A stretch of 64,000 nucleotides of DNA from Oscillatoria sp. CS-180 (GTDB lineage Bacteria > Cyanobacteriota > Cyanobacteriia > Phormidesmidales > Phormidesmidaceae), in the NCBI RefSeq assembly GCF_028330965.1, contig NZ_JAQMUB010000081.1, positions 62,001-126,000 of the forward strand, written 5' to 3'. The translations under genes and the position numbers were made by a program. Below the pieces are notes generated by a model. That model was given only the letters and a program-made list of their open reading frames with translations, was not told the DNA's origin and did not search any database. Each line of letters opens with the position of its first letter. Within the stretch, counting starts at the first letter, position 1. Shown here one piece after another: positions 27,472 to 36,129 of this stretch.

Positions 27472-27837
27472 CGTTTCGTTTCGCTAAGGTGGAGTGATCT
27501 AGAGAATTCATTATAAGAACAATAAAAAACTTTCGGTAGATCTTAAAAGCCATACGTTGAGGCACTTTCAGCCTTTTCAGATACCTCTACTTCGACATCG
27601 CAATGTGCGCTCCATCAAAATTTTCTATCCAATGAAAGCCTTCTGGGGTTGTGTTAAGGGTAATTTCACGTAACTATAGCTGCGTAAGCAAACCCGATAG
27701 TGTGGGTCAAACAGACTGTAAATCACGGTCGAATCTGCCAGAAATTATCGGGAAATCGTACCTTAGCAACCACGATGGTCAGTCTTCCTAACTCACCTGT
27801 GACTACATGGGTGTCTACCTCTTTGGAGGCACCTTCT
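27472..27837. other. Divergent promoter region
   Basis: The gap separates the SRPBCC gene from the MscS-like gene, facing apart. The rightward frame is open from 27700, but a GGAGG at 27825-27829 fixes its start at 27838, leaving this region non-coding. No other feature is evident. Confidence 0.4.
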
Positions 27838-29499
27838 ATGATGGCTCAAGTCAACACGGCTCCTTTAGAGAATTTTGTTGACGAGATGAGCCGCACCTTG
27901 GGTTCGTTTTTGCCTAGCCTCATATGGGCGATCATTATTTTGATCGTGGGATGGGTTGTGGCGACAGTTGCAGCGTCTCTCATCAAGAACCTGCTTAAAA
28001 GAACGAATTTAGATGACCGTCTCGCCAATATGATCATGGGGCGAGATACCAATCGCGATACGCCTGTTGAACAGTGGGTTGCCACCGCTGTCTACTGGAT
28101 TATCTTAGTTTTCACGCTGGTAGCTTTTTTGAATGCCCTCAATTTAGAGGTCGTTTCTGAGCCACTCAATGATTTTCTGCGAGAGATTTTCCAGTATTTG
28201 CCTCGCATTGGCGGAGCGCTCGTTTTGTTGGGAGTTGCCTGGGCGATCGCGACAATCGTCAAAGTCTTGGTTACTCAGGGATTAGCGCGATTCAACTTGG
28301 ATGATCGTCTATCACAGCAGATGGGGGGTGAGCGTAGCCCTGTCATGCTTAACGAAACAGTTGGAAATATCCTCTATTGGTTCATTTTCCTGCTGTTTGT
28401 TCCTCTTATTCTGAGCGCGTTGGACCTCCCTGGTCTACTCGCTCCAATTGAGTCTTTAATCGATCAGTTCCTCACTGCTATTCCTCGGATTCTGATGGCG
28501 GCGATCATTCTAGTGGTTGGCTGGTTCATCGCTCGGATTGTCCGTGACATTGTGACCAATCTCTTGCAGGCTACTCAGATTGACCAGCTTGGGGAACGCT
28601 TCGGGCTGTCCTCGACAAGTACTCGGCCAACGGCTCCGACGGGCACAACTAGCACAACTATTGGTGCAGCTGATGTCTCAACAACGCCTAGCACGGACAC
28701 CGATAGTGGATTGTCGCTATCCAAGCTAGTCGGCACCATCGTCTTTGTCTCAATTCTCATTTCTGCGGTTATAGCCGCTCTTAATGAGTTAGATATTGAC
28801 GCAATTTCTGGTCCGGCCATTTCAATGCTGGAGCAGATTCTGGCAACCATCCCGCAGATTATAATGGCGGGTGTCGTGTTGGCCGTGGCCTATGTTGTTG
28901 GTCAATTTGTGTCTGATTTAGTCACCAGCCTGCTTAGAGCCGCTGGATTCGACAACATCTTTAATGCTCTGGGATTACCAGAACTTTCTGCACAAACGTC
29001 TCAGACAGTGATTGATGCTGAGGGGCGTCCGACCACACGGGTTGCACCAGCAGGCCGTTCTCCATCAGAGATCGCAGGTTTGGTGGCTTTGGTTGGTATT
29101 GTCCTGTTTGGTGCCATCACGGCAACTGAAATTCTCGGGTTTGAAACGCTAACAGCAACGGTTCAAGCCATTCTCAGGATTTTTGCTCGTGTCTTGAGTG
29201 GCTTGGTTGTATTCGCTATTGGTTTGTACTTTGCTAACTTGGCTTTCCGCCTGATTAGCAATATGGGGGGCGGTCAGGCCAATTTCTTAGCTCAAGCGGC
29301 TCGCATTGCCATCATTACTCTGGTGGGAGCTATGGGGCTGCAACAGATGGGTGTCGCGACGGACATTGTGAATCTGGCGTTTGGTCTATTGCTGGGTGCC
29401 TTTGCCGTTGCGATCGCGATCGCCTTCGGTCTCGGTGGACGCGATATTGCTTCTGAGCAAGTTCGCGAATGGCTAAATGCCTTCAAACGGAAGCAGTAG
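27838..29499 (+). CDS. Multi-repeat mechanosensitive-channel-like membrane protein
   Basis: With start ATG 27838 (GGAGG eight bases upstream) the protein is 553 residues. It contains five similar units, each an amphipathic stretch plus paired helices, with motifs such as LPSLIWAIIILIVGWVVATV, LPRIGGALVLLGVAWAIATI, IPRILMAAIILVVGWFIARI and IPQIIMAGVVLAVAYVVGQF. This is the conserved TM-helix repeat (Pfam 05552) of the MscS superfamily. It ends in AFGLGGRDIASEQVREWL, the pore-helix end of MscS proteins, and lacks the cytoplasmic beta domain. It probably responds to osmotic or membrane stress; ion conduction is inferred. Confidence 0.8.
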   Translation: MMAQVNTAPLENFVDEMSRTLGSFLPSLIWAIIILIVGWVVATVAASLIKNLLKRTNLDDRLANMIMGRDTNRDTPVEQWVATAVYWIILVFTLVAFLNALNLEVVSEPLNDFLREIFQYLPRIGGALVLLGVAWAIATIVKVLVTQGLARFNLDDRLSQQMGGERSPVMLNETVGNILYWFIFLLFVPLILSALDLPGLLAPIESLIDQFLTAIPRILMAAIILVVGWFIARIVRDIVTNLLQATQIDQLGERFGLSSTSTRPTAPTGTTSTTIGAADVSTTPSTDTDSGLSLSKLVGTIVFVSILISAVIAALNELDIDAISGPAISMLEQILATIPQIIMAGVVLAVAYVVGQFVSDLVTSLLRAAGFDNIFNALGLPELSAQTSQTVIDAEGRPTTRVAPAGRSPSEIAGLVALVGIVLFGAITATEILGFETLTATVQAILRIFARVLSGLVVFAIGLYFANLAFRLISNMGGGQANFLAQAARIAIITLVGAMGLQQMGVATDIVNLAFGLLLGAFAVAIAIAFGLGGRDIASEQVREWLNAFKRKQ

Positions 29500-29859: not shown

Positions 29860-30078
29860 GTGGCAAATGACATGAACAGTGACGATATTGCTCGTTATGT
29901 TGAACAAACCGATAGTCTGTCCAAACCCTGGATTTTGATTCAATGGCGATTGCAGAAGCTGAAGGAACAGAAATCTGAAATGGATCCTGAGGTATATGTG
30001 CAAGAGCTAGCACGTCTGCATCAATCCCTCATGAATTTGGGAGAGTGGTGGGTGGGTAGAGAGGATGAGGTATTTTGA
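29860..30078 (+). CDS. Small conserved protein translationally linked to the PPK1-like gene
   Basis: This 72-residue protein begins at GTG 29860. It is hydrophilic and helical: DDIARYVEQTDSLSKPWILI and QWRLQKLKEQKSEMDPEVYV form a probable coiled helix pair. It ends nine bases before the PPK1-like start, so the two are co-translated. I do not recognise the family. The GTG lacks a strong ribosome-binding site, and an ATG four codons later is an alternative start. Confidence 0.6.
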   Translation: MANDMNSDDIARYVEQTDSLSKPWILIQWRLQKLKEQKSEMDPEVYVQELARLHQSLMNLGEWWVGREDEVF

Positions 30079-30087
30079 GGGGGCTAT

Positions 30088-32217
30088 ATGTTGCCACCAT
30101 CAGGCCATTTGGCGAGTGGGCACACACCACGACTGTTTGATCGAGAGTTGAGCTGGATTGCATTTAATCGCCGTTTGCTTTATGAGGTTGCAGATAGCGC
30201 ACAGCCCATCTTGGATCGCCTGCTCAAGCTCTCTCAGGCTTCTGCAGCTTTAGATGAATACTTCATGGTCAAGGTGCCGTTTCTCAAGGGGTTGCATGGA
30301 CCCTTGACAGGTGCTCCAGATGCCGCCCCTTTTCGGCATATTCACGCCTATCTCAAAGTATTAGTGGCGCGGCAACAAGCTCATTTTGTTTCCAACCTCA
30401 AACCTCATCTAGCTCAGCAAGATATCCACCTGCTGGACTACGGCGAGTTAAGCGATTTTCAAATTAAGCATTGTCAACATCGGTTTGAAGATGAAGTTGC
30501 GCCTATTTTGACGGCTTTGACAACATCGCCAGAAGAGGTAACACCTGATTTTTCGAACCTCAGCTTGAATTTGGCGGTGTGCCTAGAGTTGCATGGACAA
30601 AAGCAGCTGAGTTGGGTCAAGCTACCCCGCGTGCTATCGCGCTTCATGATCTTTCCCAAGGTATCAACAGAGGAGGGTTGGGTAGCCGTTCCTTTAGAAC
30701 AGGTTGTTGCTGCTTACTTGCCAAAAATCTTCCCGACTTACACCTTTCTGGGTTGCTTTCCGTTTCGAGTCACTCGCAGCGCTGACCTAGGAACCCTCGA
30801 CTCTGAAACAGCCAACCTGATGGAAATGATTCAGGAGAGTTTACAACAGCGGCAGCAACAACAGCAGGCCGTGAGGCTAGAGGTTTTACAGTCTATGCCG
30901 GCTTGGGTGCGATCGCATCTCATGGCACATCTCAATCTCATACCGGAGGATACCTACAGTCTCAGTGGCTGTCTTGGCCTCAGCGATTTGAAGGAATTGA
31001 CTCGTTTGCCGCGACCAGACTTGCGTTCTCCCAACTGGAAACCTGTCGTACCTATGGTGTTGACGTCCTCTGCCAGACCCTCACTACGGTCCTTCACGTC
31101 AGGGCTACCAAACGTTTCCGAAAACCTATTTGCGCAGATTGCTAAGCGCGATCTACTGCTGCATTTCCCATATCACTCCTTTGCTGCGACGGTCGAACAA
31201 TTTATTGCCCAAGCAGCTGTTGACCCCTCGGTCCTAGCGATCAAGATGACGCTGTATCGCACAGCGATTGATGCCCCCATTGTGCGATCACTCATTACGG
31301 CAGCGAAAGCAGAAAAGCAGGTTGTCGTCTTAGTTGAACTCACAGCGCCCTTGGATGAAGCGATTAATATTCATTGGGCCAAAAGCTTAGAAAAAGCAGG
31401 TGCCCATGTGGTCTATGGGGTTGTGGGTTTTAGAACGCATACAAACCTCGCGCTAATTGTCCGCCAAGAAGCTGAGCATATTCGTCAGTACGCTTACATC
31501 GGCACGGGAGATTATTTACCGGATCGGCCTGAGCCTTATGCAGACCTAGGACTCTTGACCAGCCGTTCTGAGGTGGGCATCGATCTCAACCATCTTTTTA
31601 ATTTCCTTACCGGATGCTCTCGCCATGTTGATTACACAACGCTGATGGTGGCACCTGAAAAGCTAAGAGCACAACTCAAGGATTTAATTGCACGGGAAGC
31701 TCAACACGCTCAGGCAGGCCGAGCCGCACGATTGATTGTGAAACTGAATTTGCTGGCTGACCCTGATTTGATCGAAGCTCTGTACGCTGCTTCGCAGGCT
31801 GGCGTAGAAATTGACTTGATTGTGCGCGGTATTTGCCGTCTCCGTCCTGGCGTGGAGGGAATGAGCGATCGCATTCAAGTGGTCAGCGTTTTAGGTCAGT
31901 ATGTTGAGCACAGTCGCACCCTCTATTGCTGCAATGGGAACAAACCTGAAGCGTGGATTGGCACGGCTGACTGGACCCCTCGTGGATTAGATGAACGCAT
32001 CGAAGTAATGGTCCCTCTCAAAGAGAGTGAACTGATTGTCAGCGTCTACCAACAGCTGGAATGCCTCCTGGCAGACAATCAAAACAGTTGGCGATTGAGC
32101 CCCACGGGTCAGTACATCAAACAGCATCCCCCTTTAGACGAACCCATGTTATCCGCACAAGCACAGTTTCAGCATCAAGCCCGCAGTCGAAAACAGATTT
32201 CACAGGTCCCTAACTAG
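30088..32217 (+). CDS. ppk1-like: Polyphosphate kinase 1 homologue, probably catalytically inactive
   Basis: The 709-residue protein has all four PPK1 domains in order: N-terminal helical (RELSWIAFNRRLLYEV), head domain, and the two phospholipase-D-like C-domains (KMTLYRTAIDAPIVRSLI, RQYAYIGTG, EHSRTLYCC and GTADWTPRGLDERIEV). Against E. coli PPK1, recalled from memory, the auto-phosphorylated His region KIHAK reads RTHTN (Lys lost); the ARFDE Arg (R405) reads APLDE; NLDEF Asn45 reads ALDEY; and GTGNF reads GTGDY with the following KTARLY segment replaced. The His corresponding to H435 and the EHSR His (H592) remain. A kinase is doubtful; a polyphosphate-binding or regulatory role is inferred. 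Confidence 0.85.
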   Translation: MLPPSGHLASGHTPRLFDRELSWIAFNRRLLYEVADSAQPILDRLLKLSQASAALDEYFMVKVPFLKGLHGPLTGAPDAAPFRHIHAYLKVLVARQQAHFVSNLKPHLAQQDIHLLDYGELSDFQIKHCQHRFEDEVAPILTALTTSPEEVTPDFSNLSLNLAVCLELHGQKQLSWVKLPRVLSRFMIFPKVSTEEGWVAVPLEQVVAAYLPKIFPTYTFLGCFPFRVTRSADLGTLDSETANLMEMIQESLQQRQQQQQAVRLEVLQSMPAWVRSHLMAHLNLIPEDTYSLSGCLGLSDLKELTRLPRPDLRSPNWKPVVPMVLTSSARPSLRSFTSGLPNVSENLFAQIAKRDLLLHFPYHSFAATVEQFIAQAAVDPSVLAIKMTLYRTAIDAPIVRSLITAAKAEKQVVVLVELTAPLDEAINIHWAKSLEKAGAHVVYGVVGFRTHTNLALIVRQEAEHIRQYAYIGTGDYLPDRPEPYADLGLLTSRSEVGIDLNHLFNFLTGCSRHVDYTTLMVAPEKLRAQLKDLIAREAQHAQAGRAARLIVKLNLLADPDLIEALYAASQAGVEIDLIVRGICRLRPGVEGMSDRIQVVSVLGQYVEHSRTLYCCNGNKPEAWIGTADWTPRGLDERIEVMVPLKESELIVSVYQQLECLLADNQNSWRLSPTGQYIKQHPPLDEPMLSAQAQFQHQARSRKQISQVPN

Positions 32218-32501: not shown

Positions 32502-33518
32502 ATGAACTCAGCTTATAATCCTTTCTTCATCGTTGGTTGCCCTCGTTCTGGAACAACCTTATTACAGGTTCTCCTAGACTCTCATCCCCATGTCTGTATC
32601 CCACCAGAGAGTTTTATCTTCACCCGCTTTTCAGATATTTTTCAAACCTATGGCGATCTTCAAGACAGCAAAAATCTCAAGATGCTCATTGAGGACTTGT
32701 TGACAGACGAACGTATCAAAGAATGGAAAATTCAAGCATCTCCTAGTGAGGTCCTGAATTCGGTTCCTGAATCGTCAGTCCAAGGTGCCATTACGGCACT
32801 ATTCGAGACCTATGCTCGACAGGAGAAAAAGTCCTTTTGGGGTGATAAGACTCCACAGCATACATTTAATTTGGACGAAATCAAAAAAGTTTTTCCTGAA
32901 GCAAAAATCATCCATTTGGTGCGCGACGGTAGAGACGTTGCTGAATCCCTGAACAGAGTTTACTTAGGTCCTAAAAGTATCTATAAAATTGCCAAATACT
33001 GGAATGCTTATATTTCAGCATTTCGAGAGTTCAAAAAGAACCATTGTGAAAAAGATTTTATAGAAATTCAATATGAGGATTTGACCATCGACCCTAATAC
33101 TCAAGTTCAACGTATTTTTAGCTTTCTAAACATTGACGCAACAGAAATCAATTTTCAGCAAGCCAAGAATACAGACAGGAAAGAACAGTATCACGGTATG
33201 GCAATTCACCATCAGGCAGTGACGGAGCCTGTTTCCAGAAAAAAGGTCGGTGTTTTTAAGACTACTTTTTCTGAGCGGCAAATAGCCATTTTTGAAACGA
33301 TCGCAGGTGATTCTCTGGAAGCCTATGGTTATCCTCTCGTGTCATCTAAGACAGTTGAAGTCGGTCCCTTCGAACGGATTAAATTCTTTTGGCAAGATTA
33401 TGTTGTCCGCTATGCTCGTAAGTTCTTAGGGGTGAAATCCTTTTTGCTGCTGCTCGAACAGCTTCGCCTAGCTATCCAGCTACAGATTCGAAAATTTCTA
33501 AGATCCTTTCGCTATTGA
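32502..33518 (+). CDS. PAPS-dependent sulfotransferase family protein
   Basis: The 338-residue protein begins MNSAYNPFFIVGCPRSGTTL: GCPRSGTTLLQ is the 5'-phosphosulfate-binding loop. IIHLVRDGRDVAESLNRVYL (about residue 140) is the 3'-phosphate-binding motif. FIEIQYEDLTIDP and the overall size fit the Sulfotransfer_3 family. The basic C-terminal 50 residues are extra. It lies just upstream of a Wzx-like flippase, so a sulfated surface glycan is the inferred acceptor. There is no obvious operon terminator between them. Confidence 0.85.
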   Translation: MNSAYNPFFIVGCPRSGTTLLQVLLDSHPHVCIPPESFIFTRFSDIFQTYGDLQDSKNLKMLIEDLLTDERIKEWKIQASPSEVLNSVPESSVQGAITALFETYARQEKKSFWGDKTPQHTFNLDEIKKVFPEAKIIHLVRDGRDVAESLNRVYLGPKSIYKIAKYWNAYISAFREFKKNHCEKDFIEIQYEDLTIDPNTQVQRIFSFLNIDATEINFQQAKNTDRKEQYHGMAIHHQAVTEPVSRKKVGVFKTTFSERQIAIFETIAGDSLEAYGYPLVSSKTVEVGPFERIKFFWQDYVVRYARKFLGVKSFLLLLEQLRLAIQLQIRKFLRSFRY

Positions 33519-33578
33519 TGGCAGTTACTCACGACAATACTTGTTGCCATCGCTGTAGACCTATGCTTAGAACAGTTG

Positions 33579-33674
33579 TAGCGGCCTACATTTGAGTCAA
33601 GCACACGCCATTCCTATTCTTATTCCCTACTCCCCTAAGACACTGAGATGGACTTAACCAAGCTGCACAGGGTG
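33579..33674 (+). repeat. Dispersed repeat family B, long copy
   Basis: It begins GCGGCCTACATTTGAGTCAA, passes through GCACACGCCATTCC and TTCCCTACTCCCC, and ends CTGAGATGGACTTAACCAAG CTGCACAGGGT. It is the plus-strand counterpart of the 8309-8412 copy with nearly full-length similarity. It lies between the sulfotransferase and flippase genes. Confidence 0.7.
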
Positions 33675-33773
33675 ATAAGAAGACTAAAGCGACTACTGTG
33701 TATGACATTGAGTCATCCTTCTGTGTTTGTCTTTTTACCTTTTGCTATCAATAAAGCCTGAAAAATTGTTGTC

Positions 33774-35177
33774 ATGAGATTATTATCACGCTTTGATTTA
33801 TCTTATGTTTACGCATTTCTAGGTGAAGCGACTCTCGCCCTCAATTTCGTTCTCTACATCTTCATTGCTCGCATCCTAGGGCCAGAACAGTTTGGGATCT
33901 TTGCCGCCGCGATCGCTCTTGCGGGCATCCTTTCACTCTTCATCCAGTTTGGACTACCCCGCTTTACGAACCGTGAGATTGCTGCTCAGCCTGAAACCGC
34001 AACTCGATCAATTGCTCTATTTCTGTTAGTCGAATGCTTGACATCGCTAGCGGTACTGATTGTATTTCTTCCCTTTGCGCTGGTATTTGGTTATCGAGAA
34101 AAGGTTTTAGCAGTCTACTATTTGGCATTGATAGCCGAAGTCGGACGAGCCGTCATTCTGACATTGCGCAATGCGATCAAAGGGCTAGGCTGGTTTCGTT
34201 CCGAGAGCATCGTCGTTTTTATTGAACGAACGGTTGTTTTTTTACTCGCTGCTCTGGTTCTGTTTAGAACTCAAAACTTAGTTCTAGTGATTAGCGCGAT
34301 GGCGATCGCTAGAGTCGCCTTTAGCCTTAGTCTCCTGTTTTATCTCAGCCGAAAAGTGAGAGTTTTCTCACCAATTCGTTGGGCAAAAATCATTACAACG
34401 ATCAAGGCAGCCTATCCCTTCGCTATCTCAGGTGTATTGTGGATTCTGTACTATCAGGTTGATATTGTGATGTTGGAGGCATTATCAACCAAGGCAGAAA
34501 CAGGGTTTTATAGTGCTTCTTATCGAGTTTTAGAAATATTTTCAGCTTTGCCAAGGGTTATTTTCTACGTTATTTTTACGCGCTTAGCTAAATATCAAGT
34601 CAGCGCGCCTGAACGACTTTCAGAGCAGCTGTATAAAGCCACTCGGCTATTATTACTTACAGTTATCCCCCTGGTTTTCTTGGCAGGCACTTTTCAAACC
34701 AACCTGATACAAGCTCTTTATAGTGACGAGTTCACGCGATCCATTCAGTCGCTTTCAATCTTGCTGCCTAGCTTAGCCGTCAAGGTATTCGGAACGATTT
34801 CGGAGCAGTTTTTACAGGCTACGGGTAAGGAGCGCAAAGTACCGAGGATTTTGATGGCTGCCGCACTTTCTAATGTTGTTGTAAATGCTGTTTTAATTCC
34901 TCGATTTGCATCCGTTGGGGCTGCGATCGCAACGCTACTCAGCGAATGCATTATGGCAACATTTGGCCTGAGAATTTTAGCTCAGACTGGCTATAGCCGA
35001 GCCAGCCTTAACATTGTCCTCATTGCTATACTCAGCTTTTTCATCACTACCATTCCCACCCTAATTCTCTATGGTTTATCTCCCCTCATTGGCGGGGTTT
35101 TGGCCCTTCCCTGTATCGCTTTGCTGCTCTATCGTATGAAGCCTAGCTACTTCAAAGAATCCAGTGCTGATGTTTAG
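33774..35177 (+). CDS. Polysaccharide/oligosaccharide flippase, Wzx-like (MOP superfamily)
   Basis: The 467-residue protein has about 14 hydrophobic helices with no large soluble domain. The opening YVYAFLGEATLALNFVLYIF and the following ARILGPEQFGIFAAAIAL match the polysaccharide biosynthesis/flippase fold. Motifs such as SGVLWILYYQVDIVMLEALS (about residue 220) and the C-terminal hydrophobic block fit. It probably flips lipid-linked glycan units across the inner membrane for the adjacent sulfotransferase/glycosyltransferase set. Confidence 0.85.
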   Translation: MRLLSRFDLSYVYAFLGEATLALNFVLYIFIARILGPEQFGIFAAAIALAGILSLFIQFGLPRFTNREIAAQPETATRSIALFLLVECLTSLAVLIVFLPFALVFGYREKVLAVYYLALIAEVGRAVILTLRNAIKGLGWFRSESIVVFIERTVVFLLAALVLFRTQNLVLVISAMAIARVAFSLSLLFYLSRKVRVFSPIRWAKIITTIKAAYPFAISGVLWILYYQVDIVMLEALSTKAETGFYSASYRVLEIFSALPRVIFYVIFTRLAKYQVSAPERLSEQLYKATRLLLLTVIPLVFLAGTFQTNLIQALYSDEFTRSIQSLSILLPSLAVKVFGTISEQFLQATGKERKVPRILMAAALSNVVVNAVLIPRFASVGAAIATLLSECIMATFGLRILAQTGYSRASLNIVLIAILSFFITTIPTLILYGLSPLIGGVLALPCIALLLYRMKPSYFKESSADV

Positions 35178-35229
35178 TCCTATAGCCATCCCAGATGATT
35201 TCTAGGGATAAGCAGGCGTGATCCAAATA

Positions 35230-35300
35230 CAGCGGTGTGCACGTGAAGCAAGTACACTCTGTTCCCCGTCACCGACTCCTTGTTCCCTTAAGAACTTGAC
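35230..35300 (+). repeat. Dispersed repeat family B, diverged copy
   Basis: Contains AGCGGTGTGCACGTGAAGCA, AGTACACTCTGTTCCCCG and CCTTGTTCCCTTAAGAA, the family B order of AAGCA-ACAC-pyrimidine tract-CTTAAGA but with more mismatches. It sits in the gap between the convergent flippase and TauE genes. Confidence 0.45.
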
Positions 35301-35349
35301 GGCCATAAGCAACATGAGTCAGGCCGTAGGATCACCACAATCCGCAATA

Positions 35350-36129
35350 TCAAGTTGCCTGATACTGAAAGGCTTTCCAGAGCGTGTAGAGAATTAAGAC
35401 AACAAGCAGCCCTCGAAATAATAGACTCACGAGCTGATCCGGCAGCTTCGGTAACGTTCGACTGCTGAGACGGGCGCTCAAAGCCCCTCCTGCACCCAAA
35501 ATGAGACCGGCTATCCAGATCACGTTTCCTTGTGTAGCGTGACCAATGGTAGAGGCGATGGCCGTCATCACCACCACTCCCAGACTGGTTTGAATGGCGC
35601 GTTTGATGGGGTCTCCTAGCAGTAGCATCTGCAAAGGCACCATGATGACGCCGCCGCCAACCCCCAGCAGTCCTGCCATGAAGCCGGCGATCGCCCCCGT
35701 CAAAACCCTTGCGAGTTTGGGGTTGACCTTTTGACTCTCGGCTGTCGGGGTTTCTTGGCTAGCTAATTGTTTGCGTAAACCAACCAGGAAAATATTCACT
35801 GCCAAGAGGATCGCGAAAGCAATCAGCAACAGCTGAGGAGACAAGCTGCTAGCGAGTAGAACCCCCAACTGAACCATGACGACTGCGGGCAGACCAAGCC
35901 AGAGAACTCGCTCCGGATCGAGGTACCCCATCCGCCAGTTTTGCCAACTTCCTGATAGTGAATTGATGATGATTGCCAGACTGCTGGTCGCAACGGCCTG
36001 AATCGGTTCATAACCGAGTGCTAATAAAATGGGCACCATGACGGTCCCGCCGCCAATGCCTAAAAGCCCTGCCAGTGCTCCAGCAAAAACGCCTGACAGG
36101 AGTAGGGCAATCCATTGAGCAACCGCCAC
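35350..36129 (-). CDS. TauE/SafE-family permease
   Basis: The 259-residue protein has eight predicted helices arranged as two similar halves: GVFAGALAGLLGIGGGTVMV (about residue 15) and GAIAGFMAGLLGVGGGVIMV (about 145), each followed by a helix. The repeated G-L-L-G-x-G-G-G signature is diagnostic for TauE/SafE anion exporters. Substrates in the family include sulfite, sulfonates and small organic anions. The start is GTG. It is adjacent to a short exported protein and to nagA; the substrate is unknown. Confidence 0.88.
   Translation of the reverse strand: MAVAQWIALLLSGVFAGALAGLLGIGGGTVMVPILLALGYEPIQAVATSSLAIIINSLSGSWQNWRMGYLDPERVLWLGLPAVVMVQLGVLLASSLSPQLLLIAFAILLAVNIFLVGLRKQLASQETPTAESQKVNPKLARVLTGAIAGFMAGLLGVGGGVIMVPLQMLLLGDPIKRAIQTSLGVVVMTAIASTIGHATQGNVIWIAGLILGAGGALSARLSSRTLPKLPDQLVSLLFRGLLVVLILYTLWKAFQYQAT

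Follow-up and report, generated by a model that had tools for sequence, protein, structure and literature searches.

A clade of cyanobacterial PPK1 homologues with a remodelled active site, encoded beside a conserved 68-aa protein

The question raised by this locus is whether a protein with the complete domain order of polyphosphate kinase 1 (PPK1) and a changed active site is still an ordinary polyphosphate kinase, and what it might do if it is not. The window, which is the whole 64,000-nucleotide stretch analysed (on contig G000:C21 of a 6.5 Mb genome), contains an open frame of 709 aa at 30088-32217. E. coli numbering is used for conserved positions, and residues of the window protein are written in one-letter code. 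The relevant features, with clade counts referring to the 12 species described below, are as follows.

27700-29499, forward strand: membrane protein resembling an MscS-type channel, with four stretches matching PF05552; it precedes the pair formed by the next two genes
29872-30078, forward strand: 68-aa predicted all-helical protein of a conserved cyanobacterial family, its stop 9 nt before the PPK1 ATG
30088-32217, forward strand: PPK1 homologue with a remodelled active site, 709 aa (from ORF, domains, alignment and predicted fold)
30247-30249, forward strand: codon of A54, at E. coli Asn45; Asn lost (from alignment)
31342-31353, forward strand: codons of T419-A-P421-L422, at E. coli Gln403 (Lys in cyanobacteria)-Ala-Arg405-Phe406 (from alignment)
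31438-31446, forward strand: codons of H451-T-N453, at E. coli His435-x-Lys437 (HxK); His kept and Lys replaced by Asn in 12/12
31495-31497, forward strand: codon of Y470, at E. coli His454; Tyr in 12/12
31510-31539, forward strand: rebuilt loop D475-Y-L-P-D-R-P-E-P-Y484, in place of the canonical NYNPKTARLY (from alignment)
31909-31911, forward strand: codon of H608, at E. coli His592; kept in 12/12

Membership of the PPK1 family is clear. All four Pfam PP_kinase domains are present in PPK1 order and the frame scores above the cut-offs of two NCBIfam PPK1 models (TIGR03705, 630 bits against 465.85; NF003921, 729.7 against 701), which bears out the PPK1 domain order and length recognized in the first-pass annotation. 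The AlphaFold model (pLDDT 81.4) has E. coli PPK1 (1xdo, TMq 0.83) as its top PDB match by E-value, and proteins of the phospholipase D superfamily are the next structural neighbours. A promoter and terminator scan at the locus gave no signal above shuffles. Because the curated cut-offs are passed, automatic annotation will name this gene polyphosphate kinase, a name that may be wrong.

An alignment was made of the window protein, the ppk product of E. coli MG1655 (L032) and 51 cyanobacterial rows. In this alignment Asn45 corresponds to A54, Arg405 to P421 and Lys437 to N453, and the phospho-acceptor His435 and His592 are kept as H451 and H608. Further losses are His454 to Tyr (Y470), Asn459 to Asp, Asn461 to Leu and Thr464 to Arg, and the cyanobacterial Lys403 (Gln403 in E. 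coli) is replaced by Thr. The sequence HIGTGNYNPKTARLYTD of the relatives reads YIGTGDYLPDRPEPYAD in the window protein. The motif blocks are free of gaps and hold no shifted Arg, Asn or Lys, which rules out chance mis-mapping. The first-pass annotation had placed Ala, Pro and Asn at positions 45, 405 and 437 and had described most of the K-T-A-R-L-Y loop as changed; the mapping was right, and the canonical NYNPKTARLY is DYLPDRPEPY here. Its statement that both active-site histidines are retained applies to His435 and His592 but not to His454. Asn45 and Arg405 are taken here to be ATP/Mg ligands, and Lys437 of the HxK motif is presumably important, as in the PLD superfamily.

The altered site is common to 12 species of one family (12/63 family genomes, that of the window included), with identities to the window protein of 63-68% in its genus and in G058, and of 52-57% in g4 and g8. 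A tree with all 12 members recovers them as monophyletic (support 100/100) at the end of a long branch. A profile search of 388 class genomes at E 1e-264, a threshold below which a more diverged member could be missed, gave 13 matches and no clade member outside the family; the thirteenth match (L070 in G067) has canonical residues, in a genome with no 68-aa match, and is not a member. An order-level search, which covered the same 63 genomes as the family search, gave the same 12/63 and no further members. The comparison set was 158 other cyanobacterial PPK1s, namely 41 rows from the family and 117 from the rest of the class. The row for E. coli and six loci that were duplicates (L034, L101-L104, L106) are excluded, and its loci are a subset of the PPK1 matches, with G115 (two fragments) left out. 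G142 and G149 gave no match in one of the PPK1 searches.

Asn45, Arg405, Lys437 and Lys403 are lost in all 12 clade members and are kept in 157, 158, 158 and 157 of the 158 other PPK1s, respectively, the one gap at Asn45 being L146, which is without its N-terminus, probably through a frame change. Loss of the same positions in 12/12 and their retention in nearly all of the 158 means that this was not chance. Two patterns of replacement are seen. Position 45 varies within the clade (A/S/Q/Y), as does position 405 (P/S/A/T), and the positions of T419 and L422 on either side of the latter are fixed in 12/12. His435 and His592, present in 158/158 of the others, are invariant in the clade together with Asp470, Glu623, Tyr468, Arg375, Arg564 and Arg594, and the Ser610 position is Ser or Thr. 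Of the features expected of a catalytic PPK1, His435 and His592 with Glu623 and Asp470 are thus found in 12/12 members and Asn45 with Arg405 in 0/12, and the Lys of HxK is Asn in every one.

When the whole protein was considered, 156 columns were conserved in at least 97% of the 158 PPK1s, and 21 of these are lost in all 12 clade members. Ten of the 21 carry one same new residue throughout the clade: Arg171>Trp, Lys403>Thr, Phe406>Leu, Lys437>Asn, His454>Tyr, Asn459>Asp, Asn461>Leu, Thr464>Arg, Leu590>Val and Asn617>Gly (the first-named residue at 171 and 403 is the cyanobacterial one). Newly fixed residues are concentrated at positions 400-470 (10/25 in 71 columns, hypergeometric p 6.8e-5), a tendency that is weaker for lost columns (8/21, p 0.074); a further group of lost columns (6/21) is in the head domain. 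Clade members deviate at 28-36 of the 156 columns, other PPK1s at a median of 0 and a maximum of 8, and E. coli at 53, a comparison that is descriptive as the columns were chosen on the 158 PPK1s themselves. Special retention of catalytic residues was considered and rejected, since 8/13 residues that we chose for a published or otherwise expected role are retained compared with 95/156 conserved columns in general.

The altered paralogue is maintained under purifying selection. The four clade pairs with a computable synonymous distance gave dN/dS of 0.059, 0.079, 0.139 and 0.089, three pairs involving the window protein being saturated, and 0.045 and 0.047 in two pairs of the second PPK1 described below (PPK1-A), for which three more pairs were saturated. 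The altered PPK1 thus evolves faster than PPK1-A, yet as a constrained protein.

An intact second PPK1 does exist in the window genome (L002, G000:C19:13760-15817) with canonical key residues, which rules out the absence of a true PPK1. A second PPK1 match was found in 11/12 clade genomes, and the 10 of these that were read all have the key residues; the draft clade genome G005 gave no second match. This PPK1-A forms its own branch in the tree and is unlinked to the locus of the altered gene, and no match to the 68-aa gene was found in the roughly 0.4 to 1.5 kb retrieved on either side of it. Homologues of PPK2 and Ppx-GppA are also encoded in the window genome, so that parts of a polyphosphate economy exist without the altered PPK1.

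Gene order suggests where the altered gene came from. The window was compared with 15 loci of the family, ten from the clade (L053-L058, L225-L227, L231) and five with an intact PPK1, termed PPK1-B (L228, L229, L230, L232, L233). The 68-aa gene is directly before PPK1 on the same strand at 15/15 loci (10/10 clade, 5/5 intact), and the MscS-like gene is upstream of the pair at 13/15 (8/10 clade, 5/5 intact), whereas at L057 and L058 no such gene was found in the 1.2 and 1.9 kb that precede the 68-aa gene. The clade therefore occupies the locus of the PPK1-B of its relatives. Intact PPK1-B of the same GTDB family shares the order MscS-like gene, 68-aa gene, PPK1 at all five loci but differs in having canonical key active-site residues. 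Free trees (one of them with 9/12 members) put the clade on its long branch and not beside PPK1-B, and an AU test did not reject placement with the family's PPK1-B (p 0.218), which does not show orthology. Since the long branch makes the tree alone unusable as proof, orthology to PPK1-B rests on gene order, and on that basis the simplest history is that PPK1-B was converted at its own locus in a genome that already had PPK1-A. Downstream, at 32502-36129 of the window, are genes for a sulfotransferase, a flippase-like membrane protein and a TauE-like protein (the latter two by our own reading), with no match in the 15 related loci.

Published work on PPK1 bears on what these losses mean. In E. 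coli, mutagenesis found His435 and the buried His454 to be important in autophosphorylation, and Glu623 and Asp470 orient His435 and His592 (PMC3163519). In M. tuberculosis PPK1 the His435 equivalent is essential, the mutants R431A, R461A, N515A, R624A and R654A had lost ATP formation, the reverse reaction, and nothing else, and Y524A, S668A and E681A were affected in both directions; H510A was also impaired in both directions, and H510Q was near wild type for polyphosphate synthesis (PMC3215733). By our alignment R461, N515 and H510 are the equivalents of Arg405, Asn459 and His454. Because such mutants keep polyphosphate synthesis, single residue losses do not prove a dead enzyme. No PPK1 pseudoenzyme was named among the matches listed in the open-licence literature. 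The first-pass annotation had proposed a pseudoenzyme. The loss of conserved residues behind that proposal is real, clade-wide and under purifying selection, with an intact PPK1 elsewhere in the genome, but catalytic death does not follow, as the histidine core is kept in 12/12 and alanine substitution of the Arg405 and Asn459 equivalents left M. tuberculosis PPK1 able to make polyphosphate.

The data presented here suggest that the altered protein is probably no longer an ordinary polyphosphate maker and has a regulatory or otherwise different job; ordinary PPK1 function appears unlikely given the joint loss, which includes Lys437 and Asn45. Compared with E. coli PPK1 (TIGR03705; 1XDO/1XDP), the likeness covers the whole length, the four domains and the predicted fold (TM 0.83), and His435, His592, Asp470, Glu623, Tyr468, Arg375 and Arg564 are kept; the differences are the clade's loss of Asn45, Arg405, Lys437, His454, Asn459, Asn461 and Thr464, and a new loop motif, GTGDYLPxRPxPY, in place of the canonical loop. 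The protein would thus be a member of a known family in which the remodelled site is the new part. Re-fixation of ten lost positions to one residue in 12/12 fits re-specialisation better than simple loss, and from drift at Asn45 and Arg405 combined with re-fixation around the histidine we infer re-specialisation. Judged from sequence, this is probably a compromised and re-specialised PPK1 paralogue, and probably a regulator.

The fullest account of the observations, which we consider evenly poised between right and wrong, is that PPK1-B was freed by PPK1-A and re-specialised as its regulatory companion. The locus-linked PPK1-B would have been altered in the ancestor of Halomicronema (placed in Nodosilineaceae by NCBI taxonomy) and related Leptolyngbya-like genera, being released from ordinary polyphosphate synthesis because, as we propose, the unlinked PPK1-A does that work, and then re-specialised. 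Handling of ATP phosphate and Mg by Asn45 and Arg405, both now variable, would no longer be needed in its old form, and the His435 pocket would have been rebuilt (Lys403>Thr, Lys437>Asn, His454>Tyr, Asn459>Asp, Asn461>Leu, Thr464>Arg, Asn617>Gly). The resulting protein may bind polyphosphate or nucleotide without normal turnover and act as a regulatory companion of PPK1-A, possibly forming a hetero-oligomer with it, and the 68-aa helical protein would be its conserved partner. The PPK1 head domain takes part in dimers (PMC11322815), and with 6/21 lost columns there, the way in which the protein pairs with PPK1-A may be altered.

That the altered protein may regulate the true PPK1 is a plausible proposal. 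It would work like Vtc2/Vtc3 beside the catalytic Vtc4 of the yeast polyphosphate polymerase, where a polymerase-like subunit regulates its catalytic paralogue (PMC9911596, PMC10167327); this is an analogy only, and VTC differs in having TTM and SPX domains and in forming a membrane complex, the altered PPK1 having been modelled as a single chain. Ralstonia eutropha, with two ppk1 genes, is similar in having more than one PPK1 per cell, but the account consulted gives no residue data and mentions no inactive copy (PMC8776046). Several points count against the regulatory reading: residues kept in 12/12 include ones that a mere scaffold could perhaps do without, M. tuberculosis PPK1 still makes polyphosphate when its Arg405 or Asn459 equivalent is mutated (PMC3215733), the MscS-like gene is unmatched at 2/10 clade loci, and G005 is without a second PPK1.

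One alternative, unlikely in our judgement though the histidine core speaks for it, is a re-specialised enzyme in which phospho-histidine chemistry is preserved, with His435 attacked and His592 acting as the acid, and the donor or acceptor has changed; it might, for example, hydrolyse polyphosphate, phosphorylate a different acceptor or draw on a different phosphoryl donor. Retention of His435, Glu623, His592 and Asp470 in 12/12, the ten positions re-fixed to single residues and an intact predicted fold with phospholipase D superfamily proteins as next neighbours are all consistent with this; however, the HxK Lys is gone, as are the Asn45, Arg405 and Asn459 residues, and the neighbouring genes suggest no substrate. 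Less probable again is that the protein is still a polyphosphate kinase, slower or one-directional, which makes polyphosphate and cannot form ATP from it. It draws on M. tuberculosis mutants that lost only ATP synthesis (Arg405 and Asn459 equivalents) or stayed near wild type in polyphosphate synthesis (H510Q, at His454), and on the retention, by our alignment, of Tyr468 and Glu623, equivalents of residues whose mutation affected both directions, with Ser610 as Ser or Thr (PMC3215733). Against it, eight or more conserved positions, at the site or close to it, have changed jointly, Lys437 (present in 158/158 others) among them, H510A was impaired in both directions in the same study, and the gene persists beside a full PPK1. 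Regulation of the MscS-like channel or of an osmotic response, instead of polyphosphate synthesis, is very improbable: the channel-like gene adjoins the pair at 13/15 related loci but is missing at L057 and L058, and it was found at 0/18 of the 68-aa loci outside the family within 1.5 kb flanks. Pseudogene decay or misassembly, suggested by the long branch and by a single internal TGA in L011 (G049, a 61% complete draft), is largely contradicted by the other 11 frames, which have no internal stop, by dN/dS of 0.06-0.14 in four pairs and by derived residues common to 12 species, and hardly merits belief.

To our knowledge little is known of the control of PPK1 in bacteria. With contacts lost and the histidine core kept in 12 species, the altered PPK1 is a natural tool for separating polyphosphate binding, histidine phosphorylation and chain synthesis. 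Somewhat tentatively, the locus may represent either a polyphosphate synthase system with a dedicated, non-synthesising PPK1-like companion and a 68-aa helical partner, a convergent bacterial counterpart of the pairing of catalytic and non-catalytic subunits in VTC, or a PPK1 fold with a novel phospho-histidine activity.

The small protein encoded upstream is brought forward here as a candidate PPK1 partner, named by no family model searched. The first-pass annotation had listed it as a coupled protein of 72 residues; it does adjoin PPK1 at 15/15 loci, but the length of 72 aa counts from a GTG at 29860, homologues align from the ATG at 29872 to give 68 aa, and the family is widespread, being present in 123/194 cyanobacterial genomes (profile of 17 members) with one copy in the window genome. 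Where both genes were mapped, 38/74 matches had a same-strand PPK1 match 26-484 nt downstream and the remaining 36/74, some of them on short contigs, did not, which indicates that linkage is common but not universal. The model is helical (pLDDT 89), with no known structural relative (best PDB match E 1.2), no Pfam match above cut-off and no NCBIfam match; the name EAD11 was rejected, as that Pfam model scores below its cut-off (17 vs 26 bits) and matches 3/17 members only. The 68-aa gene by PPK1-B looks degraded or is unmatched in several g7 genomes (L016, L019, L031 and others, not L018 or L025), and in G033, G042, G044 and G045 the 68-aa match is on a different contig from PPK1-B.

Among the other cyanobacterial PPK1s, the PPK1-B-type copies L145 (G164), L140, L143 and L144 of family f24 deviate at 8, 7, 4 and 4 of the 156 columns and are four of the five most deviating, L212 (5) being the fifth. 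L145 carries Arg564>Gln and Asn459>Asp, and the f24 genomes with these copies also contain PPK1-A. A second, independent relaxation in f24 is a possible reading of these sequences.
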